A stretch of 64,000 nucleotides of DNA, from positions 1 through 64,000 of the IMG/VR virus record IMGVR_UViG_3300034044_000048; one strand, 5' to 3'. This DNA is from a virus. Position numbers and translations under genes: made by a program. Shown piece after piece: positions 9,683 to 45,542 of this stretch. The notes under the pieces were generated by a model. That model saw only the letters and a program-made list of their open reading frames with translations. It searched no databases and was not told the DNA's origin. Positions within the stretch are counted from its first letter, which is position 1; each line of letters starts with the position of its first letter.

Positions 9683-11209
9683 ATGTTACCTACTAATTCA
9701 GAAATTGCTAAAAAATACGGTTGCAGTCCTACTTCATCAAATTGTGTAGTTTGGCAGGGACCTGATATAGAATGTATATCTTTATGTAAAGGAGATACAA
9801 TAACAGATGTTGTATATAAATTGGCGACTGAATTATGTATAATAATGGAACAATTTAATCTTAACAACTATGATTTATCATGTTTAAGATCAGATTCAAC
9901 ATTAACAATAAACAATTTACAAGATTTAATACAACTACTTTTAACAAGACAATGTAGTATTTTAGAGGGTAATAGTGATGGAAGTCCTATTACAATTTCT
10001 AATGATGTTTGTCCAACAAACTGTATTGTACCAATTGCTAAATGTTTTGAATTTACAAATTCACAAGGAGATCTTGAAAATTCAATGCCTTTATTAGATT
10101 ATATAAATGCTATAGGAAATAGAGTTTGTTCAATAGTCGATACTTTAAATACTACTAATAATAGTTTAATAAATACTAGATCTCTTTTAGATTCTACAAA
10201 TAAAAACATAGAAATATTAGATAATCAAAAAGCAAGTAAAACATCTTTACAATATCAATTAAATATAAAAACAGATGGTCTTTCTGAAACATTATTTGTA
10301 ACAGATGCTTTAAGAAAAGTTGAAAATGAGACTATTAAATCAAAAGAAGCACTAGGTACTATTGAAAATGTATTTGATGCTATAGTAACAGAAGGAACTA
10401 TACCTGAAGAAGATCAATTATCTTCTCAAGGAAAAGTTAAAAATATTTTAGGTTATATATTTAAACCTAAAAATATATCAGAATCTCTTACTAATTTGTG
10501 GTTAAATATAAGTGATTTAAGAAAAAGTGTAAAATTTATACTTGATAACTGGGATAGGAATAGTTGTAATAGTCTTTTTTTAAATTTCCAAACTCAACTA
10601 TCAGGAACAAGAATTAAATTATATGTAAATGGTTCAACAGGTTTTACATCAGATTGGGAAGAAATAGGTAATAAAACTGAAATTATAATAAAAGATAAAG
10701 ATGGTAATGTAACAACAACTAGTTTTACATTATTTAGTTATTTATCTGATCCTTCTGGATTTACTATTGATTTAGCACCTACACCAATAGATATAACTAA
10801 AGATATTGAAGTAATCCTTGTTACAAAATTTAGAAATAAAGTATCAAATACAACTTGTGAAAAAGAATATAAAGATGTTATATATTCAGAAGTTGTATGT
10901 CCTTCTGTTACTTTTTCTGTATCTTCTGATTCTATTAATTATCAATTTAACTCAACAAAAGGATTTACATATAAATTAAATCTTTATTATTCAGGAAGTA
11001 CAAATGTTTTAGAAACTCAAATAATTACATCACCTCCTCCTTCAGTTAATAATTCTTTTATGAATTTAAAAGAAAATACTGATTATGAGTTAGAATTAAT
11101 TGTAGTTAATTGTTTAAATCAAGAAACTGTTTGTGATAAAAATTATTTTAAAACATTAACAAGTCCTTGTTTACCTGTGATTAATGTAACAGCAACCCTA
11201 ACATATTAA
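9683..11209 (+). CDS. Fibre-type protein with CxxWxGxD anchor
   Basis: 508 residues. The N-terminus has the motif C21-V-V-W24-Q-G26-P-D28 followed by GD at 37-38 and a helix, and the same spacing occurs in the 11214 product. Residues 70-300 are helical, probably a trimeric coiled-coil shaft (repeats of Asn/Leu and polar heptads). The C-terminal 200 residues are beta-rich, with two fibronectin-III-like units (the last contains ENTDYELELIVVNC). The layout of anchor, shaft and beta tip is that of a phage tail or head fibre. There are 46 bp of A/T-rich leader before the ATG. The attachment partner and the receptor cannot be read from sequence. Confidence 0.55.
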   Translation: MLPTNSEIAKKYGCSPTSSNCVVWQGPDIECISLCKGDTITDVVYKLATELCIIMEQFNLNNYDLSCLRSDSTLTINNLQDLIQLLLTRQCSILEGNSDGSPITISNDVCPTNCIVPIAKCFEFTNSQGDLENSMPLLDYINAIGNRVCSIVDTLNTTNNSLINTRSLLDSTNKNIEILDNQKASKTSLQYQLNIKTDGLSETLFVTDALRKVENETIKSKEALGTIENVFDAIVTEGTIPEEDQLSSQGKVKNILGYIFKPKNISESLTNLWLNISDLRKSVKFILDNWDRNSCNSLFLNFQTQLSGTRIKLYVNGSTGFTSDWEEIGNKTEIIIKDKDGNVTTTSFTLFSYLSDPSGFTIDLAPTPIDITKDIEVILVTKFRNKVSNTTCEKEYKDVIYSEVVCPSVTFSVSSDSINYQFNSTKGFTYKLNLYYSGSTNVLETQIITSPPPSVNNSFMNLKENTDYELELIVVNCLNQETVCDKNYFKTLTSPCLPVINVTATLTY

Positions 11210-33737: not shown

Positions 33738-36700
33738 ATGAATTGTGCTTTAACACCTAAAAAATTAGAAAATTTATATATATATAATTTTAAAATATTA
33801 TTAAAATATACAAATGATGATAAAAAAGAATTTAATTTAAAAGAACATATAAAATCAATTTATGATTCAATATATAATAAATCAAAAGATAGTAATCTAG
33901 CTACTTTATATGCTCAGCAAGTTCCTAGAATGACAGTTTTAGCAATATCAAATGATAGAGAGTTATCTAAAACTATTAGAAAAAAAGGATTAGATGTAGC
34001 TGAGTTATATGATTTTGACGATCGTTATGAAGATTTTGAAGAGGTTATTAAAGATCTTTCAAATGATTCAGATCAATCTGTTAAAGAAGAAGATGTAGAG
34101 TCTATTAGAGATGAGATTAAAGAAACTGCTAAACGAAAACAAACTAATCCAAAACCAGAAGGTACTCCAGAAGATATTGAAAAAGAAGAGGATAAAAAAG
34201 AATCTAATAAAAAAGAAATAAAAAGAGATATATATAGTGCTAAACCTTCTACAGCTTTGGCATTAACAGGGCAAGAAGAAAAATTCAATGAAGAAACAGG
34301 TTTATGGGAAGAAGATCCTGAAAAATCTTTTTATTATGATTTTTTAAGATTAATTTTTGATAAATCTAATGATGGGTATATTGATGCAGAAAATCTTAAA
34401 ATAGGTAATCATAAAGGTTTTAAAATAAAGGTAATAAGTAAAAGTAAATTACCTATAGATAAAGCAATGCCTGATGAACAAGAACTATTTAAAAATGAGC
34501 CTTCTAGAATGCCTGATTATGAAAAAGGAATTGGTGCTTTTATTACAGATTTAGAAGGTAATATTTTATATTTTGATAAAAATTATAATACCGTTTCAAA
34601 AGAAGAGGGTATGCCTATTTATTTTAATTTAAGAACTCCTATTAAAAATGAAGATGGTAGTTTTTATTTAATGAAGGCTAAAATACAAACACCTGAAGAA
34701 ATATTAAACAATGAGTTAAGAAATGGAGGTTTTGATGTTGCAGAGTATAAAAAAGAATATCCAGAATTATATAAACAATCACTAAAAGAAATTTATAATG
34801 TACAACAAGAAGAATTAAAACAAATTTCAAAAATAAGAAATGCTTTAAATGAAGATAAAAATAAAGAGTTTTTATTAAAAATTAATGCTGTTTCAAGAGG
34901 TATGTTAAATTACAGCTATAACTCTTATGAAGATCCAAATAACATTAATTGGGATAAATCCGATGTTTCTTTTAATCCTGTAAAAATTATTAATGATGGT
35001 GATGTTAGACCTGGAGAATTTAAAGGTGGTATTTTTTTAAGAATACCTGGTCAAAGATCAATTAGGTTACAATCAAAAAATATATCTGACAAAGATATAA
35101 ACATAATTTTAGAATTATTATTTAATCCTGATTTAAAATTAAATAATAAACCTTTAAGTTTTGATATGAGGAAACACCTATTAGAAACTTTAGTTTATAC
35201 AAATAAAAACTCTTTTCAATTAATTAAATCATCTGATAAATTTATAGTTAAAGTTGAAGGTAAGCTGATAGATATTACTTCAGAAAAAAGTTTATTAGAA
35301 GCAAAAGAAAAAGTAAAAGAAATATTAACTAAGCCTTATAGTAAAAATTCTTCTTTTAATACTATATATGGTATTTATAATTTTAAAACTAATGACAAAA
35401 ACAATATAGATGAAGTAGTTTCTATAAAGGATAATAAAGTTGAATTAAAAGAAGTTCCTTTTGATGTGTATGCTAAAAGTCATACTTTATTAAAAATTAA
35501 TTTATCAAATAAATCTGAAAAAACATTAAAATATGCAAATAATTATTTAATGTTTTCAGTTGAAGGAGAGATAGTTAAAGAAGAAGAAGAAAGAAAAGAA
35601 GAGGAAGGAAAAGAAGGAATTAAAAAATCTGATACATCACAAAAAAAGATAGCAAAAATAAAAAATCCTACAATTAAAAAGGAAAGAAAAAAAATAGTTA
35701 GAAGAAAAAGAGAAAAAATAACCAGAAAGAAAAAAGACCATTTAGAAGCAAATAAAAAGATTTTACTTAAAAATTCTAAAAAACAAATTGATAAAGCAAA
35801 AAAATGGTTTGATAATTCAGAGTTATCTAAATATATAAAATTAGAAGATCTAACTAGCATAATTAATTCTGAAGCTTGGGCTAAATTTAAAGATTCTGCA
35901 ATAACTCTTTATAAAGGTTCTAATTACACATTACTTTATCATGAATCTTGGCATGCTTTTTCTCAACAGTTTTTATCTAAAACTGAACAAATTACTTTAT
36001 ACAAAGCTTTTGAAAAAACAAGGTTAGGTAAAGATTTAATTGAAAGAAAAACAGAAGAAGAAGAAAGAGAATTAACAGAAGAAGAAAAATACTTAGTTTT
36101 AGAAGAGTATATAGCTGAAGATTTTAGAGAATTTATGATTTATGGCACTTCTGAGTTATATGATAATAAAAAAGTAAAATCAATTTTTAAAAGGATATTA
36201 AATTTTTTAAAATCAATATTTACAAAAGAAGGAAGATTTAAATTAAAAATAAAAAAATATTTTAATGATTTAAAAACAGGAAATTTTAAACAATATGATC
36301 AATCTCAATTAAATTATTATTTTACAGGTAAAGATTTACATGCTAGGTTTGAGCCTGTTGAAGGTGTAGAAGAAGATTATAACATATCTGAAGATGATAC
36401 AATTAGATTAATTAAATCTACTGATTCATTATTATTAAGTTTAATACATGAGGAAAATATTAAAGTAAAATCTTCAAAATTTTTAATGTCTGTTTTACAA
36501 AATCCTAAAAAGAACTTACCTTTCTTTATGGATAAAGTTTATGATAAATTAATTGACAGATATAATGAATTAATAGAAGAATTAGAAACTATAGAAAATG
36601 ATAATGAATATTTAATATTAGATGAAAAAGTAAATGCTTTAGAAACTTTAATTTCTCATTTTGGATTAAATGAAGATAATATATTTGAATCAACAGGGTT

Positions 36701-39700
36701 TGTTAAATTATACTTAGAAAAATCTATTTTAAACACTTTAGAGGTTGATTTATCAAAAGAACAATCTTTTTTTGAAAAACAGTTATCAGATAAAGAGGAA
36801 AGTCTTTTAGAAAAATTAGATGTTTATACTAAATTTTTATTATCTATAAATAAAGAAAGAGATGAATATGGTAATTTAGTAAAAGATGAATTTGGAGTAC
36901 CTAAACTTTTACCTTTTAATGATGCTTATGCATTAATTAAATCTTTAAGTTATCAAAATAATGATTCTCCTAAAACTATTATAAATAAATTAAAAGAAGA
37001 ATTATCTAATAATAGAAATTATTGGGTAAAAGAATTAATTGATAATTTAGGTGATCCTAATACAGGTGATACAGACTTATTTAGATTACAAAGTAAATTT
37101 TGGCAAGACTTTTTTTACTCAAAAACTCCATTAATTCAAACAAATATAGATCTTAAAAATCAAAATTCAAATACTCAACAATCAAGAACAGTTGATGTAA
37201 AAGTAGGAGAAGCTTCAGCTGTTCATAGAAATTTAGCTAATGATATAACTAGTCATTTTAAAACTGTTAGAAGTAATAGATTTATTAAATTTGTAGAAGG
37301 TGTTGGTAATGTTTTAGATACCGATGCTATATTAAAAAAATATAATGAAAAATATACAGCTTCAAATAATTATAATGAATTTTTTAAAGATATTGGTTTA
37401 AATTTAAGTTATAAACCTGATTTAAAAAATAAAGATTCAGATATTTTAAGAGATGCTGCAGGTAGATTTATAACTTTAATTAGAGAAAAAAATAAAATAG
37501 GATACCAGATTACAGATATAATTAAAGATTTAAGAGAAAAAACTATTTATTATGAAAAAGATGTAAAAAAAGTTTTAGAAGGAGAAAATACTTCTTTAAG
37601 AAATGTTTTAAATTTAGAATTAAAAAATTCTATTAAATATGCTAATGTAGGATTATCAACTCCAGATGGTAATGTAAAATTTGAAGACCATCAGTTTAGC
37701 ACTATTGATATTTTAATTAAAGATATTAATAATTTAAATCATTATAGTGAAATTTATAAATACCCTCATTTAAGTGAGTTTTGGATTGAAAATAATGATT
37801 GGGTTAAAAATTCAGCAATTTTCCATTCCTTATTCATTTGGAATGAAAGTTTGCAAACTTTTGAAGATAGAAATAAAAGTGTTAAACTTGAAAAAAAAGA
37901 AATATCAGGAACTCAAGTAATTGAAGATGATCATTCTAATTTAGATTATAGTGCTAAAACATCAAATGTTGATGAAAGTACCAGAATATTACAAGATATT
38001 CATAATGGTCTTTTATTAGGAGCTTTTTCTAACATAACACCATCTGATAAAGGTACTATAATATCTGTAACAACTAATGTTGTAAGTAGTTATAAGAATG
38101 AAGACACAGCCTCAAAAACAAAAAGATTATATGTTGATTATCAAGGTTTTGGTAAATTAGTTGGTAAACATAATGCTGCAATAGTCAAAGCTGGTAATAT
38201 AATGATTGGCTATTTAGATGCTGAATTAAAAAGAATAAATAAAGTTAAAAAACATCAAGAAACAGGTGAAGAATTACCAAATATATTAGGATATACTGTT
38301 CCTGATAGTAGAGGAAATATAAGAGGTTTAGAATTTGGTATATTAGATGATGTTTTAAATTTTAAAAAAGGATTAAAAGAAAAACTTTTAAAATTAGAAA
38401 ATGCAGACAGTTTAAAATCATTTGAAAATTTAGAGTTGTATAATGAATTTTTAGATGCTGTAAATGATTATTTTAATTGGTCTTATGAACAAACACTAGG
38501 TGCTATAGAACCTTCTTTATTTTTCATTACTAAAGAAATTTTAAATACTGCTAAAAAACAACTTAAAGATTTAGGTTTTGAGAATAAAGATTTAACCTTA
38601 GAAGCTTTAAGAAGAGTAGCATTAAAAACTTATGTTGTTAATTCTTTTTTACATCATGCTGAAAATTTTATTTTTTCTTATGGAGATTTAGCTCAGTATA
38701 AAGATATATTTAAAAGAAATTATGCTTTCCAATCTCAAGGTAATATGCATAGAACAGATCAAGAAGCTGTTGATTTTGTAAATGGTGTATTAGGAAGACC
38801 TTTTGAAAAAAAATATAAAAAAGAAAAAGGAATTGATGAACCTATTAGAAGATATGATAATAAATTAAATACTGTTGTTTTTGAAGAAGTTACTGTTCAA
38901 TCTGAATTAATAGGTGTTAATGATGATGGTTCATATAAAGAATATACAAAAGCTGTAATAGAAGATTTAATTGAAAGAGGATATTCAAAAGAATTAGCTA
39001 TTGAGATTGAAAAGATTGTAAATAAAGCTTATTATTCAATGGATGAAGGAGATGCTGGTGCTTGCCTTAATTTTGATACTTATAGAATATTAAGTTATTT
39101 AAATGATTCTTGGAGTGATAAGCAAGAAGAATTATATCAAAAAATACTTAATAATCCTGAAGAAATTTTAACAACAGACATATTAGAATATTTTCCTCCA
39201 AGAAAGTTTCAATATTTTGGAGCTTTAGAAATGAGTAAATTTAATGCTAAAGCTTTACATAAGTATTCTTTATTTCCATTAATACCAACTGTAATTAAAA
39301 ATACTAATTTAGAAAGGTTATCTGAAATAATGTATGAACAAGGTATTGATTATGCAACTTATGAATCAGGATCAAAAGTTAGTACTATTGTACCAAAAGG
39401 AAAAAAATCAGGAGAAACTCTTTATTCAGATTTAAAAAATAGAATTTTAGAAAGTAGAGAAAATGGAGAACCTTTAGTTAAAAATGTTATATATACTCAT
39501 TTTTTAAAAGATCAATTAAAAATAAATTCTAAATTTAAAAAGAAAACAATATTTTCTACACAATTAAGAACTTTAATAGAAGACTCATTAATTGAAAATG
39601 GTATTCCTGTTGATTTTGAAAAAGATTTACCTTTTTTTGATAGAAAAGAAAAATGGGAATCTTTAACTGAATTAGAAAAATTTAAAAAATCTTTTTTTTA

Positions 39701-42700
39701 CTCAAAGTTTAGAAGATACGAAAATAAAATTTCTAAATATATTGAAGTTCAAAAAATATTATTAAAAAAAGAATTAGGACTTTATGATCAAAACTCAGAT
39801 AAAACTAAATTGGTTTCTGTAATAAAAGAAGAGTTATCAAGAGAAGATTTAGCTGAACACGAATTAGATTTTATTAGAGTTGATGAAAATGGCAAATTAG
39901 ATATTGATTTATCTTTTTCACCATCTGCAGCAAAAATAGAAAGAACTTTAAATGCTATTGTTAATAACAGAATAGTTAAACAGAAAATGAAAGGGGAATC
40001 TTTAGTACAGGTTCCTACCACTTTGTTTGAACCAAGAAAAGCAACACAAGCTGAAAAAAAGAAGTATGGTGCAACTAATGATATGAAAAGTTACACTAAA
40101 GATCCAAAAACAGGTAAAACAAATGCTGCAGAATTTAAAATAGCTTTACAAGGAGATTTTAAAAAACTTTTACATCTTAAACACAAAGATGGAAAAAAAA
40201 TAATGGTATATAAGAAAAGAATTTATACAAAACCAGATGGTACAACCAAATATATAAAAGAAGTTGATCAAAAAGAAAGTTTAAAAAGATTAAATGAAAC
40301 TATTCAAGATGCTGAATGGAGAAGTAAAGAAGAAAATAAAAGATTAATTTCAATGATTGGTGTTAGAATACCTGTACAAGGTTTAAATTCAATGGAACAC
40401 ATGATTGTTTGGGAATTTTTACCAGAAGAAGCTGGTAATATAATTATCCCTCCATCAGAAATAGTTGCTAAATCAGGTGCCGATTTTGATGTTGATAAAC
40501 TTACTGTTCTTTTTCCGGGATTAGAATTAATAAATGGTGAAGTTCATTTTATAGAAGATACTAATGATTCATCTAGTGCACAAGAATCATTAGACAAAGT
40601 AGAATCATTAAAGGAAAAAATAAAAGAATTAGAAAAACAAAAAAATGATTTAAGAAAAAAATATTCTTTAGAATATTCAAAAATATCAAATTCTGAATTA
40701 ACTGAAAAACAAAGGTTAGAGAGAAATGAAATATTGAAACCTTTTTATGATGAATCAGATGAATTAGAACCTTATGCTGACTTAATAGAATCGCAAATTG
40801 ATAAATTAGAATCTATAAAAAATAAATCAAAAAAACAACAACAAAAGTTAGAAGAATTATATGAACAATATGATGATATAATGAATAAAATAGATGATTT
40901 ATATGATAGATTTGAAAAAGCTAAAAAAGAAATAGGTAAAAAGTTTTTTGAAGAAAAGTTTAAAAAGTTTGAAGAAACAAGAGATGCTGAGTTAAATCCT
41001 GTTTTAAATGAACTTAAATCATTAAAATTAGAAACACTTTCTAATAGCACAAGTGCAATTCAAAATTCAATATTAATTGAAATGAGAGATATATTGAGTT
41101 TAGAATATAATTTTTTAAATTTAATAAGACCTAATAGTACTGATTTATTTACAAGTGGGGGAGGTATTGTAGATGAGATGTCTACATATAAAGATTCTTA
41201 TTTTAAATCTACATCGCCAACAAGAGCTTTAGAACCAAAGAAAAATGCAAATGTTCATGCAAGAAACTCTATTGGTAAAAGTACTTTAGGTATATCTGCT
41301 AATGCAAATGTCTTTAATACATTGTTAAATAGAATTGGTGCTGTATTAAATCATTCTTATAGAACTAAAAAAGGTGAAAAAAGAAAAGTTTTTATAAAAT
41401 TAAATCATAATAAAATAGGAAATAATATTTCATTAAGTAATATATTTTCTAAAGATGGTGTTAGAATATCAGATATAATTAATCAATTAATGAATGGTTA
41501 TGTTGATATTGCAAAAGAAGATTGGGTATTTGATATAAATGCAGGTCAAGAAGCTGCACCAACTTTATTATTTTTAATTATGGCAGGGGTTCCTTATAAA
41601 GAAGCTATTTATTTTTTATCAAATCCTTTAATTAAAGAATATATAAAAGAAAGACAAAACTTAGCATCAAGTTTTAGTAAAGCTACTGGTTATTCAGCAG
41701 AATCTATTGTTTTTAATAAAAATAAAGCAAAATTTAACATTTTATCAAAATTTGAAGAATTAGAATTTGTTTTAGACTATGATAAATCATCAGTTAAACA
41801 AGGAAAGTTATATAACTATACATATAATAAATTAAAAAAGGTAGATACTTTTGATGTAGAAAGAATAGGAAAAATGTTTTTTGAAGAAGCTTTAGATGAT
41901 GAAGAAGCTTTATTAGGGTTTTTACATTTTTTACAATTAGAAGATATAGGTAAGCATTTAAACTATTTTAGAAAAGCTGTTAAGCTTGATACTGTTAAAA
42001 ATACAACTTTATTTGATGCTATTAATAAAGAAAATGAAATCAAAAAATTAAGTGAAGTTGGTTTACTTGATGAAAGTTATATTAAAAAAGCCTTTGAAGA
42101 AACCCCAACTGGTAAATTTAGAGTTGGTCCATATCAACTTGAATTATGGCAACCTTTATTTAAAATAAGAACACATCCAAGAGTTACAAGTTATTTAAGT
42201 GATGTTTATGACACTTATAAATTTAATAAAGATGTTAGAATGACATTTAACGATGAGGAAAAATACATAGAAGAATTTAAAAATGATTTAATAATTGCAA
42301 TTTTTGAAAATAGTTTATTACCAAAATCAGAATCAATATTAAATGAAGGTTCTTACAAAGGTGTAGAGATTATTAAAACAGATGAGGATTTATTAATAGA
42401 ATTATTTGAAGAAGATGAGGAAATTAAGTTTAAAATAAATTTAGAAAAATTAAAAGAAGCTTATGATAAATCTTTATTTTCTGAAACTAAAAGTTCATTA
42501 GAAAATAGTTTTGATAAGTTAGGTTTAAACTCTTTACCTTTATATACTTTTTCTGATGGGTACTTTGATTCTTTTTTTAATTATATGTTAGAGCTTACTT
42601 ATTTAAGATATGATTTTCATATTGATTATTTAAAACATACAAGATTATTTAATCAAGAATATGCAAAACATTATAACCAAATTGAAGATTTAGAAAAAGA

Positions 42701-45542
42701 TGATCAAATAAACTTTGTTTATGAAAAACTTATATCAAAATTAGCTTTAAATAGAACTTTAAATCCAAGAAAAATATTTAAAAGTTCTGAATCTTTAGCA
42801 AATGAAATCTTTGAGTTAATGGATATTTACCCAGAATTAAAAGAAAAATATTATTTGCTATCACAATTAAAAATTTCAAGTACTAAAACTGATGATTCTA
42901 AAAAAATTAAAATAACCAATTTAGCATTAATTGATACAAAAGTTGATTCTGATATTTATAAGTTAATGAACTCAAATATGTTAGATTTAATGTCTGAAGA
43001 TAACATATCAGTAAACGATAGTCCGGAAGGTGTTGATATTACTTGGTTTGAAAATAGATTAGTTGCTGAATATTTTAAAACTTTACAATATGCTGCTTTT
43101 ATGCAATCTGGTTTAAATACTAAAGACTTTTTATCTTTAATAAGAATAATGGATCAATCTTTAATAGCTAAAGAATTAGACAATGTAAATATTGATTCGC
43201 TATTTTACAGACCAAATTTTTTTAAGGGATATAGCTCTTTATTTTATAATAATAATTCAATTAATAATGTTGCAAATAGAAAGAGATTTAAAAACTATTT
43301 TGATTCTATACTGTTTCATGGAATGTCTAAATCAAAAAGTGTTAATACATCTGATGAAGAATCTTCTATTGATGAATCTTCAGTTTTAAATCCTGAAGAT
43401 TTTGTAAATCATTCTGGTGGAGCCTATGGAGCAGATACATTATGGGACATTATAGGAAGAGAATTTGGAGTAACTGATCATAAGCATTACAGAGATAAAG
43501 AAAACTCTAATTTATCAAAGAAATTAAAAAACATCACTAATGCTACTATTTTAACAAAAGATCAAATAAATGAAAGTAGAGAAAAAGTAAATAAATTACT
43601 CAATAAAAATTATAAAGATGATATACAAGGTAATTTACAAAGTCGTAATTATTACCAAGTTAAAAATGCAGATGCTGTATTTGCTATTTCTAAATTAAAA
43701 AACAATAAAAGAGAAGTTTCTGGAGGAACTAATACTGCTGTACAATTAGCTATTATTATGGAAAAACCTGTTCATGTTTGGGATGTAAATACTGAAAAAT
43801 GGTACACATATAAAAATGGAAAATTTGTTGAAGAAGATACACCTACTTTAACAAAGAATTTTGCAGGTGTAGGTACAAGAGATATAGAAAATTATAATAC
43901 ATTTAATAAAGCTACTAAAAAATGGGAGTCTAGAGAACAATATGTTGGTGATGAAAAAGCCAAAAAGGCTGAGCAAGCTATAAGAGATGTATATGAAAAG
44001 ACATTTAATAAAAAGTCATCACAAACTACACCTACATTACAAGATGTATCAGAGTATTCAAATGGTAAAACAGAAAGTCCTAATGTTGTTATTCCAAAAA
44101 AGTCTTCTAAAATACAACCGCCTAAAGGTACTATTAATGTGTATTGGGGACAAAGCGAATCAGAAAAATCTACAAGAATATTATCAAATCTTGCACCAAG
44201 AAAATTTACTTATACTAGTACAGATGGTATAGAAAGAGAATATGGTTCTGTCGAACATGCTTATCAATCTAATAAAAATGGTAAATTTGATAAAGCTGTA
44301 TATGATGCTTATATTAAAAAGGGGGGATATGGTGTAAAAATATCTCCTAAATTAACTGAAGTTGGTAAGAGGGGTAATTTACAACTTATGAAAGATTTAG
44401 TTGTAGAATCTTTTATACAGAATCCTAATTCAGAAGCAGCCAAAAAATTATTAATGTATGAAAATTTTACTCATAATACTAATCAATTAATTGATAAAGC
44501 ATTTTTAGAAGGATTAAAACTAGCACAAAAAGAATTATTTGAAATAATAAAAGAAATAAATAAAAATGTTGATATATCTGATAATAAGACTTTTAACACT
44601 AAAGTGTCTATAATAGATAAATATGATGTTAATATAGTTAAAAATAATCCTGATAAAATTTATATATTTGGAGATAATGTTGTAGGTAAAGGTAAAAAAG
44701 GACAAGCTATAATTAGAGATGAAGAAAATTCTTTTGGTATTCCTACTAAAAAATTACCATTTACTTCTGAAGAATCTTACTTTTCCGATAAAGAATTTAA
44801 AGAAAACAAAGAGTATATTGATAAAGCTATAGATAAAATAAAAAAGGATGGAAGAGAAATAGTATTTCCGAAAGATGGTATAGGAACAGGATTAGCTAAA
44901 TTAAAAGAGAAAGCTCCTAAAACTTGGGAATATTTAAATAAAAAGTTATTAGATGAATTTGGATTTAATAATGAAACAGGTGAAGTTATAAGACAACAAT
45001 CACAAACTCAAGAAACAACACAACCTGTATCAGAAACACTGACAGGCAGAATACAAAAAAAATACCCAAAAGAAATTGAATGGGAAACTTTAGCTGGAAA
45101 AGCCGATACTAAAAAATTACAAGAAATTGCTAATTTAAAACCTAATAAAATAGTTCCTTTTAAAAAGGGTACACCTTATGGGGATATTGTAGAGAAATTA
45201 TATGGAAAACACGCAGCAAGATATGTAAGAGATACAGAATCAGAACTTTCTGAAAATGAAGGAGAATTTTTAAGAGATAATCCGGAATTTGCTAAAAACT
45301 TTATATCAGATTTTTTAGAATCTGAATTAGGAGAAGGCGAAACAATGCAATCTTTTGCTAAGAAATTACTTGAAAAATATGTAATTAAAATAGATACTTT
45401 TCAAACTTCATTGTTTGATAATTATTATGTATCAGAAATACTAACAGAAAGTGGAGATACTATAGAATCATTAGGAATAACCCAAGAAGAATGGGATAAC
45501 TTAACCCAAGAAGAAAAAGATAATATTATTAAATGCGGATAA
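33738..45542 (+). CDS. Virion RNA polymerase polyprotein with C-terminal NAD/ADP-ribose-type domains
   Basis: 3934 residues from the ATG at 33738; a TTG 24 bp upstream is less likely. Order: N-terminal region; basic linker (about 615-680); zincin motif H735-E-S-W-H739 with a possible third ligand near E789; helical RNAP region; polymerase core with RIPVQGLNSM and then SGADFDVDK, where D2249, D2251 and D2253 form the DxDxD metal site; coiled-coil insertion (about 2280-2430); helical region; SLOG-like domain (3220-3420, HSGGAYGADTLW and VSGGTNTAVQLAI); NADAR/YbiA-like domain (3466-3605, NVYWGQ, SNLAPRKF, YGSVEHAYQ); macro-like domain (3637-3740, IYIFGDNVVGKGKKGQA, FPKDGIGTGLAKL). Known crAss-like RNAPs are packaged and transcribe early genes after ejection. 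Only three cysteines occur: C3, C1776 and penultimate C3933. Domain names after the polymerase are from motif reading. Confidence 0.8.
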   Translation: MNCALTPKKLENLYIYNFKILLKYTNDDKKEFNLKEHIKSIYDSIYNKSKDSNLATLYAQQVPRMTVLAISNDRELSKTIRKKGLDVAELYDFDDRYEDFEEVIKDLSNDSDQSVKEEDVESIRDEIKETAKRKQTNPKPEGTPEDIEKEEDKKESNKKEIKRDIYSAKPSTALALTGQEEKFNEETGLWEEDPEKSFYYDFLRLIFDKSNDGYIDAENLKIGNHKGFKIKVISKSKLPIDKAMPDEQELFKNEPSRMPDYEKGIGAFITDLEGNILYFDKNYNTVSKEEGMPIYFNLRTPIKNEDGSFYLMKAKIQTPEEILNNELRNGGFDVAEYKKEYPELYKQSLKEIYNVQQEELKQISKIRNALNEDKNKEFLLKINAVSRGMLNYSYNSYEDPNNINWDKSDVSFNPVKIINDGDVRPGEFKGGIFLRIPGQRSIRLQSKNISDKDINIILELLFNPDLKLNNKPLSFDMRKHLLETLVYTNKNSFQLIKSSDKFIVKVEGKLIDITSEKSLLEAKEKVKEILTKPYSKNSSFNTIYGIYNFKTNDKNNIDEVVSIKDNKVELKEVPFDVYAKSHTLLKINLSNKSEKTLKYANNYLMFSVEGEIVKEEEERKEEEGKEGIKKSDTSQKKIAKIKNPTIKKERKKIVRRKREKITRKKKDHLEANKKILLKNSKKQIDKAKKWFDNSELSKYIKLEDLTSIINSEAWAKFKDSAITLYKGSNYTLLYHESWHAFSQQFLSKTEQITLYKAFEKTRLGKDLIERKTEEEERELTEEEKYLVLEEYIAEDFREFMIYGTSELYDNKKVKSIFKRILNFLKSIFTKEGRFKLKIKKYFNDLKTGNFKQYDQSQLNYYFTGKDLHARFEPVEGVEEDYNISEDDTIRLIKSTDSLLLSLIHEENIKVKSSKFLMSVLQNPKKNLPFFMDKVYDKLIDRYNELIEELETIENDNEYLILDEKVNALETLISHFGLNEDNIFESTGFVKLYLEKSILNTLEVDLSKEQSFFEKQLSDKEESLLEKLDVYTKFLLSINKERDEYGNLVKDEFGVPKLLPFNDAYALIKSLSYQNNDSPKTIINKLKEELSNNRNYWVKELIDNLGDPNTGDTDLFRLQSKFWQDFFYSKTPLIQTNIDLKNQNSNTQQSRTVDVKVGEASAVHRNLANDITSHFKTVRSNRFIKFVEGVGNVLDTDAILKKYNEKYTASNNYNEFFKDIGLNLSYKPDLKNKDSDILRDAAGRFITLIREKNKIGYQITDIIKDLREKTIYYEKDVKKVLEGENTSLRNVLNLELKNSIKYANVGLSTPDGNVKFEDHQFSTIDILIKDINNLNHYSEIYKYPHLSEFWIENNDWVKNSAIFHSLFIWNESLQTFEDRNKSVKLEKKEISGTQVIEDDHSNLDYSAKTSNVDESTRILQDIHNGLLLGAFSNITPSDKGTIISVTTNVVSSYKNEDTASKTKRLYVDYQGFGKLVGKHNAAIVKAGNIMIGYLDAELKRINKVKKHQETGEELPNILGYTVPDSRGNIRGLEFGILDDVLNFKKGLKEKLLKLENADSLKSFENLELYNEFLDAVNDYFNWSYEQTLGAIEPSLFFITKEILNTAKKQLKDLGFENKDLTLEALRRVALKTYVVNSFLHHAENFIFSYGDLAQYKDIFKRNYAFQSQGNMHRTDQEAVDFVNGVLGRPFEKKYKKEKGIDEPIRRYDNKLNTVVFEEVTVQSELIGVNDDGSYKEYTKAVIEDLIERGYSKELAIEIEKIVNKAYYSMDEGDAGACLNFDTYRILSYLNDSWSDKQEELYQKILNNPEEILTTDILEYFPPRKFQYFGALEMSKFNAKALHKYSLFPLIPTVIKNTNLERLSEIMYEQGIDYATYESGSKVSTIVPKGKKSGETLYSDLKNRILESRENGEPLVKNVIYTHFLKDQLKINSKFKKKTIFSTQLRTLIEDSLIENGIPVDFEKDLPFFDRKEKWESLTELEKFKKSFFYSKFRRYENKISKYIEVQKILLKKELGLYDQNSDKTKLVSVIKEELSREDLAEHELDFIRVDENGKLDIDLSFSPSAAKIERTLNAIVNNRIVKQKMKGESLVQVPTTLFEPRKATQAEKKKYGATNDMKSYTKDPKTGKTNAAEFKIALQGDFKKLLHLKHKDGKKIMVYKKRIYTKPDGTTKYIKEVDQKESLKRLNETIQDAEWRSKEENKRLISMIGVRIPVQGLNSMEHMIVWEFLPEEAGNIIIPPSEIVAKSGADFDVDKLTVLFPGLELINGEVHFIEDTNDSSSAQESLDKVESLKEKIKELEKQKNDLRKKYSLEYSKISNSELTEKQRLERNEILKPFYDESDELEPYADLIESQIDKLESIKNKSKKQQQKLEELYEQYDDIMNKIDDLYDRFEKAKKEIGKKFFEEKFKKFEETRDAELNPVLNELKSLKLETLSNSTSAIQNSILIEMRDILSLEYNFLNLIRPNSTDLFTSGGGIVDEMSTYKDSYFKSTSPTRALEPKKNANVHARNSIGKSTLGISANANVFNTLLNRIGAVLNHSYRTKKGEKRKVFIKLNHNKIGNNISLSNIFSKDGVRISDIINQLMNGYVDIAKEDWVFDINAGQEAAPTLLFLIMAGVPYKEAIYFLSNPLIKEYIKERQNLASSFSKATGYSAESIVFNKNKAKFNILSKFEELEFVLDYDKSSVKQGKLYNYTYNKLKKVDTFDVERIGKMFFEEALDDEEALLGFLHFLQLEDIGKHLNYFRKAVKLDTVKNTTLFDAINKENEIKKLSEVGLLDESYIKKAFEETPTGKFRVGPYQLELWQPLFKIRTHPRVTSYLSDVYDTYKFNKDVRMTFNDEEKYIEEFKNDLIIAIFENSLLPKSESILNEGSYKGVEIIKTDEDLLIELFEEDEEIKFKINLEKLKEAYDKSLFSETKSSLENSFDKLGLNSLPLYTFSDGYFDSFFNYMLELTYLRYDFHIDYLKHTRLFNQEYAKHYNQIEDLEKDDQINFVYEKLISKLALNRTLNPRKIFKSSESLANEIFELMDIYPELKEKYYLLSQLKISSTKTDDSKKIKITNLALIDTKVDSDIYKLMNSNMLDLMSEDNISVNDSPEGVDITWFENRLVAEYFKTLQYAAFMQSGLNTKDFLSLIRIMDQSLIAKELDNVNIDSLFYRPNFFKGYSSLFYNNNSINNVANRKRFKNYFDSILFHGMSKSKSVNTSDEESSIDESSVLNPEDFVNHSGGAYGADTLWDIIGREFGVTDHKHYRDKENSNLSKKLKNITNATILTKDQINESREKVNKLLNKNYKDDIQGNLQSRNYYQVKNADAVFAISKLKNNKREVSGGTNTAVQLAIIMEKPVHVWDVNTEKWYTYKNGKFVEEDTPTLTKNFAGVGTRDIENYNTFNKATKKWESREQYVGDEKAKKAEQAIRDVYEKTFNKKSSQTTPTLQDVSEYSNGKTESPNVVIPKKSSKIQPPKGTINVYWGQSESEKSTRILSNLAPRKFTYTSTDGIEREYGSVEHAYQSNKNGKFDKAVYDAYIKKGGYGVKISPKLTEVGKRGNLQLMKDLVVESFIQNPNSEAAKKLLMYENFTHNTNQLIDKAFLEGLKLAQKELFEIIKEINKNVDISDNKTFNTKVSIIDKYDVNIVKNNPDKIYIFGDNVVGKGKKGQAIIRDEENSFGIPTKKLPFTSEESYFSDKEFKENKEYIDKAIDKIKKDGREIVFPKDGIGTGLAKLKEKAPKTWEYLNKKLLDEFGFNNETGEVIRQQSQTQETTQPVSETLTGRIQKKYPKEIEWETLAGKADTKKLQEIANLKPNKIVPFKKGTPYGDIVEKLYGKHAARYVRDTESELSENEGEFLRDNPEFAKNFISDFLESELGEGETMQSFAKKLLEKYVIKIDTFQTSLFDNYYVSEILTESGDTIESLGITQEEWDNLTQEEKDNIIKCG

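Follow-up and report, generated by a model that had tools for sequence, protein, structure and literature searches.

A crAss-like phage represented in the window, a stretch of 64,000 nucleotides of viral DNA, encodes a virion RNA polymerase polypeptide of which the region downstream of the polymerase core carries three cysteine-free modules that are predicted to fold separately: SLOG, NADAR and DUF7831 (Table 1). The explanation that we favour, and consider fairly probable, is that these modules enter the cell with the polymerase and are ADP-ribose- or NAD-directed effectors, probably involved in counter-defence. They would arrive before any phage gene is expressed and would jointly neutralise NAD- or ADP-ribose-based host immunity in the first minutes of infection; an alternative target would be damage inflicted by ADP-ribose on the entering DNA or RNA. 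The NADAR module would most likely remove ADP-ribose by N-glycosidic hydrolysis, the DUF7831 module, macro-like, would bind or hydrolyse ADP-ribose derivatives, and the SLOG module would bind or cleave a related nucleotide.

Table 1. Features of the virion RNA polymerase polypeptide and neighbouring cargo proteins in the window. A single number is the first position of a motif.
Feature	Position (nt)	Strand	Residue (aa)	Basis or remark
Upstream cargo protein, 1543 aa	29089..33720	+		single Cys, the C-terminal residue C1543
crAss-like virion RNA polymerase polypeptide, 3934 aa	33738..45542	+		open frame, core homology, virion homologues
N-terminal cysteine	33744..33746	+	Cys3	
HESWH, zincin-type HExxH motif	35940..35954	+	735-739	
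DFDVD, catalytic motif of core	40482..40496	+	2249-2253	
SLOG module	43395..44006	+		PHROG 768, AF2, VIA; fold nearest putative molybdenum carrier 3imk
SGGAYGADTLW	43413	+	3226	SLOG
VSGGTNTAVQLAI	43716	+	3327	
NADAR module	44115..44537	+		profile against YbiA, VIA fold, 22-row alignment
SNLAPRKF	44184	+	3483	
YGSVEHAYQ	44241	+	3502	
Equivalent of NADAR E88 (E. coli C7)	44253..44255	+	Glu3506	invariant, 22/22
Equivalent of NADAR K95 (Glu+7)	44274..44276	+	Lys3513	invariant, 22/22
Candidate third catalytic residue, phage (gp30.3) type	44472..44474	+	His3579	invariant, 22/22
DUF7831 module, macro-like	44604..45001	+		Pfam, VIA, alignment
IYIFGDN	44658	+	3641	
GKGKKGQA	44685	+	3650	
GIGTGLAKL	44877	+	3714	
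C-terminal region past modules, ends ...NIIKCG	45002..45542	+		phrog_8831, E 4e-4, at extreme end
C-terminal cysteine	45534..45536	+	Cys3933	
Downstream cargo protein, 1325 aa	45566..49543	+		Cys only C4 and C1325
Cargo protein, 318 aa	49547..50503	+		Cys only C5 and C317
Last cargo protein, 1856 aa	50487..56057	+		sole Cys is C3

The core of the polypeptide matched crAss-like phage RNA polymerases exclusively, including Gp50 of crAss001, and the three aspartates of its catalytic motif are invariant in an alignment of 11 polymerases, such that both the DxDxD motif and the homology expected of a crAss-like virion RNA polymerase are present. Megablast of the polymerase against phages yielded no match. 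Since the homologues crAss001 Gp50 and phi14:2 g066 are virion proteins (PMC10172136), we infer that the polypeptide is packaged in the virion of this phage and, by analogy, it is probably injected into the host. These homologues also carry terminal cysteines but are considerably shorter (2412 aa for Gp50 and 2180 aa for g066). The C-terminal end of the polypeptide recurs in L004. Of 73 related polymerases, 69 have an HExxH motif, which usually precedes the core on its N-terminal side; the candidate zincin-type motif HESWH could release the modules by cutting.

Seven motifs that the earlier note had quoted from the tail all lie in the single open frame, where it had placed them, and chance occurrence is excluded because the first module matches the PHROG 768 'DprA-like' profile (E 1.6e-13) and the third matches Pfam DUF7831 (E 1.5e-35). 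The description of a polypeptide ending in three domains holds as to their presence in the tail and fails as to its end, given that about 180 aa follow them. NCBIfam and PADLOC searches produced no match for the tail, nor did a single-sequence search of the PDB. Foldseek alone found no significant PDB match for either predicted model, and all structural statements below derive from a second look with VIA-align after Foldseek. Two separate module alignments were used; a joint alignment of the three modules had placed SLOG over NADAR.

For the NADAR module, a family profile searched against the PDB gave E. coli YbiA as the sole significant match (E 7e-5), and the predicted model aligned with YbiA (2b3w; Z 10.3, 140 residues aligned) and with the NADAR-ADP-ribose structure 8bau (Z 10.1, 133 aligned), the next entry covering the domain having a Z of 3.2. 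Pfam PF08719 scored the module on its own at 13.6 bits, below the gathering score of 35.1, and the NADAR claim therefore rests on the fold and the catalytic residues. We consider the module to be a divergent branch of the family because a relative, L010 (cr126_1), exceeds the Pfam cut-off with 51.8 bits. The catalytic residues E88 and K95 of the E. coli C7 NADAR (PMC11543638) provide the reference for the Glu and Lys that are conserved here, and T4 gp30.3 has a Glu, a Lys at +7 and a His in the corresponding region. In the window module His appears to replace Asp/Glu in the last strand, within an invariant TH pair, as expected for the gp30.3 type, and the Asp found at the third catalytic position of DarT1-linked antitoxins is absent, His occurring in all 22 rows. 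The module thus shares with the gp30.3 type (PMC11125620) the fold, Glu, Lys(+7) and the His in the last part, but differs in lying inside a virion RNA polymerase, in its divergence and in falling below the Pfam cut-off alone. Compared with its three nearest copies, dN is 0.10-0.14 against a dS of about 1, and the resulting dN/dS of about 0.1-0.15 indicates purifying selection. Judged from alignment and model, the NADAR module is clearly predicted to be of an ADP-ribose-cleaving enzyme type.

The SLOG assignment proposed earlier is firm, as is that of NADAR: the AF2 model (pLDDT 96.5) aligned with 3imk at a VIA Z of 13.5, the next match reaching 5.7, and the glycine-rich HSGGA and GGT motifs, which together with a SLOG-type fold characterise cpYpsA-like proteins, are both present and invariant in 23 aligned SLOG sequences. 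Pfam PF12694 scored the module at 12.8 bits, under the gathering score of 26.2, and a search with the SLOG of L021 alone returned only its own contig. Sensing, and not catalysis, may be the role of this module. The third module had been called macro-like, and this can be retained only as a weak resemblance of fold, the sequence family being DUF7831. The best VIA match of the model was the VEEV macro-ADPr structure 3gqo (Z 5.0, 113 aligned, 17% identity; next 3.6), by which DUF7831 is weakly macro-like in its predicted fold. Pfam assigned the module to DUF7831 and to no macro family, and a sequence-confirmed macro domain was rejected since the DUF7831 profile found no macro chain in the PDB. 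Neither unrelated folds nor missing catalytic residues, which the earlier note had named as grounds for refuting its reading, were encountered.

The modules were shown by sequence comparison to be mobile between virion polymerases of unrelated phages. The NADAR module shares 82-86% identity with copies carried by polymerases that match in their cores at only about 25%, and phages differ in having it in front of the core, next to it or behind it. Among 80 crAss-like polymerases selected by core alone, 24 carry a module (13 of the 16 DUF7831 matches in this set being weak, with E above 1e-12), and none of the other ORFs of the same loci does. cr130_1 (L060) has SLOG-NADAR-DUF7831 in the same order as the window, L047 combines NADAR and SLOG, L073 and L086 combine SLOG and DUF7831, and L036-L040, from other phages, combine NADAR and DUF7831. 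SLOG modules also occur in the N4-type virion polymerases of Klebsiella phage Pylas, of PT15-A5 and of L061. Modules are also carried by a partner protein of the polymerase in L016, by giant proteins that are not polymerases and, in L023, by the upstream neighbour of an N4-type polymerase. A genome scan for NADAR yielded four loci, two of which are cysteine-free giant ORFs of Endozoicomonas relatives without a match to the N4 or crAss query polymerases.

That the same ADP-ribose-related modules have been taken up by virion polymerases of two unrelated kinds points to strong selection for having them in the cell at time zero. Polyvalent effector proteins (PMC5512222) are similarly giant, multidomain and probably virion-delivered, combining a polymerase with effectors and an HExxH motif, but their polymerase is of N4 type, and the text of that paper mentions neither NADAR, SLOG nor crAss; the present modules extend the idea to a crAss-like polymerase. 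A combination of SLOG, Macro and NADAR has also been described in the viral NAD/ADP-ribose network (PMC9503650), where phage versions are typically stand-alone, whereas in the present case virion polymerases of two unrelated types carry them as fusions. In a literature search for crAss and NADAR, the matches listed contained only unrelated papers.

The same survey considers phage Macro, NADAR and SLOG to act mainly on low-molecular-weight ADP-ribose derivatives, and the modules might accordingly target soluble NAD-derived immune signals (cADPR variants, Thoeris-like) instead of ADP-ribosylated nucleic acid, with SLOG as a decoy or sponge. The co-occurrence of SLOG, NADAR and DUF7831 here agrees with this possibility, which we hold only tentatively: the activity published for NADAR is directed at nucleic acid that carries guanine-ADP-ribose (PMC11543638, PMC11125620). 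In vitro, guanine-ADP-ribose was hydrolysed by a T4-type phage NADAR that has this His, but the enzyme failed to rescue cells from DarT1 (PMC11125620), and for that reason a role specifically against DarT1 is doubtful. Physical fusion to the polymerase invites the further suggestion that the modules tune it, or process NAD-capped or ADP-ribosylated RNA ends for phage transcription, with SLOG sensing NAD or ADP-ribose, as PMC9503650 proposes for fusions with nucleic-acid enzymes. We regard this as unlikely, because the patchy presence of the modules, their freely swapped positions and their occurrence in partner, upstream and non-polymerase proteins make the link to transcription a loose one.

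A function in host take-over, for instance by erasing ADP-ribose marks on host proteins in a reversal of the Alt strategy, has a precedent in a known fusion between an N4-type virion polymerase and an ADP-ribosyltransferase (PMC5512222; Iyer et al. 2017). It appears improbable in that PHROG and Pfam searches detected no transferase family in the tail and NADAR is a hydrolase family. Variable presence and position could also signify a relic or a neutral insertion without function, which we strongly disfavour given the invariant catalytic residues, the low dN/dS, the repeated independent capture and the lack of cysteine.

Delivery together with the polymerase, as the earlier note envisaged, receives indirect support from the virion homologues and from the modules being free of cysteine, as is the whole cargo. 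The cargo proteins carry one cysteine at each partner-facing end, in the pattern [-..C][C..C][C..-], a rule that came out of testing delivery. It holds at 130 of 133 junctions, and is seen in phi14:2, crAss001 and one split N4-type polymerase. In phi14:2 the ends that face each other are C1797 of g067 with C3 of g066, and C2179 of g066 with C3 of g065, and the corresponding order in crAss001 is gp47-gp50-gp49. Exceptions are the truncated locus ends of L127 and L165; L147, L175 and L192, where the next gene lies outside the block; L176, with a cysteine 10 residues from the end; and L144, where the polymerase is split in two and both sides of the break lack cysteine. This terminal, partner-facing placement suggests that cargo delivery is disulphide-linked. 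We put at slightly better than even the likelihood of a covalent train, in which, both in crAss-like phages and in at least one phage of N4 type, the cargo is joined head-to-tail by disulphides in the virion, threaded in order and released in the reducing cytoplasm with cysteine-free NADAR, SLOG and DUF7831 aboard. Its members would be nearly cysteine-free giants with one cysteine per partner-facing end and none at the outer free ends, fused neighbours would lack the cysteine pair of that junction, and modules would need a cysteine-free sequence to ride it.

Pfam detected no thioredoxin in the ORFs on the minus strand of the window, and among the readable papers searched none combined crAss-like phages, cysteines and the virion. 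The rule provides a signature by which ejected cargo can be recognised from sequence, and offers a simple, bench-testable model of ordered giant-protein ejection, a question left by the crAss001 structure. DUF7831 shows no clear difference in cysteine content between modules and stand-alone domains, three of six of the latter being cysteine-free too, and for NADAR few stand-alone domains were compared. The contrast is clear for SLOG: 4506 aa of domains in crAss polymerases contain no Cys, whereas stand-alone domains have 57 Cys in 4308 aa, with at least three label changes on the tree.

The motifs that led an earlier note to propose SLOG-like, NADAR-like and macro-like domains in the polymerase tail all fall, with their coordinates confirmed, within a single open frame (33738-45542, + strand, 3934 aa) of the window, which belongs to a virus record of 66,244 bases with a G+C content of 25%. 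The polymerase part, with its catalytic DFDVD motif at aa 2249, matched crAss-like phages only, among the matches listed from a search of 50,697 phage records. Its counterpart in crAss001 is Gp50, annotated 'putative RNA polymerase'; gp47, gp49 and gp50 were detected in crAss001 virions by mass spectrometry (PMC10172136), and the annotation of phi14:2 g065, g066 and g067 derives from virion MS/MS. In the crAss-like polymerase genes of four retrieved loci (L060, L065, L086 and L089) TAG is apparently read as an amino acid. The tail modules and the giant polymerase-associated proteins (cargo) of the window are listed in the Table.

Table. Tail modules of the polymerase, and terminal cysteines of the cargo proteins, in the window
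Feature	Position or start	Supporting match	N-terminal Cys	C-terminal Cys
SLOG module	43395-44006	PHROG 768, E 1.6e-13		
NADAR module	44115-44537	profile vs YbiA, fold, catalytic residues		
DUF7831 module	44604-45001	Pfam, E 1.5e-35		
Cargo protein	29089		none	C1543
Polymerase	33738		C3	C3933
Cargo protein	45566		C4	C1325
Cargo protein	49547		C5	C317
Cargo protein	50487		C3	none

The first two domain assignments were borne out by profile and fold. The AlphaFold2 model of the SLOG module (pLDDT 96.5, pTM 0.92) was matched best by VIA-align to the putative molybdenum carrier protein 3imk, at Z 13.5 across 147 residues, the runner-up scoring 5.7. By Pfam alone the NADAR match is weak (13.6 bits vs a cut-off of 35.1); a relative in the human-gut phage cr126_1 lies above that cut-off (51.8 bits), and a 22-row NADAR alignment compared with the PDB had E. 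coli YbiA as its sole significant match (E 7e-5). The NADAR model matched YbiA with Z 10.3 and a Phytophthora NADAR-ADP-ribose complex with Z 10.1, the other rows being far lower. Glu3506 and Lys3513, seven residues further, are counterparts of the E88/K95 pair (PMC11543638), His3579 is the counterpart of the His given for phage NADARs (PMC11125620), and all three positions are invariant in the alignment; T4 gp30.3 likewise carries a Glu, a Lys at +7 and, in the same region, a His. The macro-like character of the third domain stood in part: its family is DUF7831, with stand-alone members in other phages and also in giant viruses, and the structure most similar to its model is a macro domain with bound ADP-ribose, a weak match (Z 5.0; next 3.6) that makes a macro-like fold plausible.

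On sequence evidence, the modules are mobile. Scanning with the NADAR alignment yielded 22 loci, in the majority of which the module is part of a giant polypeptide that has the crAss DFDxD motif. In three of these (L011-L013) the NADAR domain is 82-86% identical to that of the window, vs about 25% for the polymerase cores, and the DNA match barely exceeds the domain; purifying selection acts on these copies, with dN 0.10-0.14 and dS about 1 between them and the window, a dS so high as to be rough only. NADAR follows the core in the window, L011-L015, L017 and L018, precedes it in L010, L019, L020, L025-L029 and L032, adjoins it in L021 and L022, and lies in the next protein in L016; DUF7831 and SLOG also occur on either side. 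The three modules stand in the same order, SLOG-NADAR-DUF7831, in cr130_1 (L060, with TAG read as Gln). Internal SLOG domains occur in N4-type (Schitoviridae) virion polymerases of Klebsiella phage Pylas and Alteromonas PT15-A5 and, by similarity, in L061. In a SLOG tree of 63 rows the SLOG of the window belongs to a 100/100 clade made up of 18 crAss polymerases plus a single N4-type one, and the well-supported branches require that the label 'in crAss polymerase' changed at least three times. A core-only scan, blind to modules, gave 80 polypeptides, some from near-copy loci, of which 24 carry modules (NADAR 4, SLOG 6, DUF7831 16, 13 of the last weak); no modules were found in other ORFs of these loci. 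Here and in the junction counts given below, the loci are related and were sampled by pattern, so that counts do not amount to independent trials.

Cys composition was examined as a test of delivery. The crAss-like virion polymerases are almost Cys-free (14 internal Cys in 259,033 aa), and the N4-type polymerases of Pylas (3819 aa) and PT15-A5 (3495 aa) have none. Since SLOG embedded in crAss polymerases has 0 Cys in 4506 aa, vs 57 in 4308 aa for stand-alone SLOG, the modules obey the same Cys rule as the cargo, which is what ejection together with it would predict; for DUF7831 the contrast is not clear. A family of Cys-free ORFs of about 1955 aa with SLOG (L097-L106; the one scanned has no other Pfam match) looks like ejected cargo. 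Two bacterial loci (L206, Parendozoicomonas; L209, Endozoicomonas) carry NADAR within Cys-free ORFs of 3077 and 3474 aa, which had no match to N4 or crAss polymerase queries and are perhaps prophage ejected proteins. A 2873-aa ORF with NADAR, DUF1848 and SLOG (L079, 1604-10222) is unlike the other giants in having 14 Cys.

The tail is most likely a virion-delivered effector set directed at ADP-ribose or NAD, which would act before early transcription. On sequence alone, it may cleave either ADP-ribosyl nucleic acid or soluble signals. A role specifically against DarT1 is less likely, given that the His-type phage NADAR examined to date failed to rescue cells from DarT1 (PMC11125620). Polyvalent proteins combining an N4-type polymerase with an ADP-ribosyltransferase are already known (PMC5512222); that text mentions neither NADAR, SLOG nor crAss. 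A survey of viral NAD and ADP-ribose systems, which does not mention crAss, presents the Macro, NADAR and SLOG domains of phages as stand-alone in the typical case, whereas here they are fused to a virion polymerase, and ADP-ribose domains go unmentioned in the text of a crAss genome survey. Thus, within an incomplete literature search, the fusion is new in form, though of a known type.

The few cysteines of the cargo (window, L125-L204, phi14:2, crAss001 and p-crAssphage) lie mainly at its junctions. Residue 1776 of the polymerase is the sole internal Cys in window block 29089-56057; crAss001 gp50 has one at 1334. Across 73 distinct loci, both facing ends, those towards the neighbouring protein, carry Cys at 130 of 133 junctions, exceptions being ends that are truncated, neighbours that lie outside the block, one Cys placed ten residues from the end and a split polymerase (L144, 3207-13576), whose two ORFs meet at an internal break lacking terminal Cys. 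Complete first proteins lack an N-terminal Cys (window, phi14:2, crAss001, p-crAssphage, L184, L192, L193 and L023) and complete last proteins a C-terminal one. Phage phi14:2 has g067 (none, C1797), g066 (C3, C2179) and g065 (C3, none), with zero further Cys in 5398 aa, and crAss001 has gp47 (none, C2339; on the other strand), gp50 (C5, C2404) and gp49 (C5, none). In p-crAssphage, whose polymerase carries the annotation of a fusion with another subunit, one Cys-Cys junction is left (gp45 C1956 to gp44 C3) and other internal Cys are present; in cr108_1 the first protein and polymerase are apparently fused, and there is no N-terminal Cys. In L023 a 1194-aa NADAR protein ending LEVCK lies upstream of an N4-type polymerase starting MTPCG, and the only two Cys in 3702 aa are at these facing ends (9900-9975; near-copy L024).

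As the simplest reading, we infer that the cargo proteins may be disulphide-joined end to end in the virion and freed in the reducing cytoplasm; disulphides are reported in the tail of the crAss001 structure (PMC10172136). If borne out, such a chain would be new in kind. An HExxH motif occurs in 69 of 73 polymerases and could process the joined chain, a role already proposed in polyvalent proteins (PMC5512222). In cr108_1 (gp054/gp053, L215) the polymerase gene lies in two ORFs, broken at the DFD motif, and the break lacks terminal Cys.
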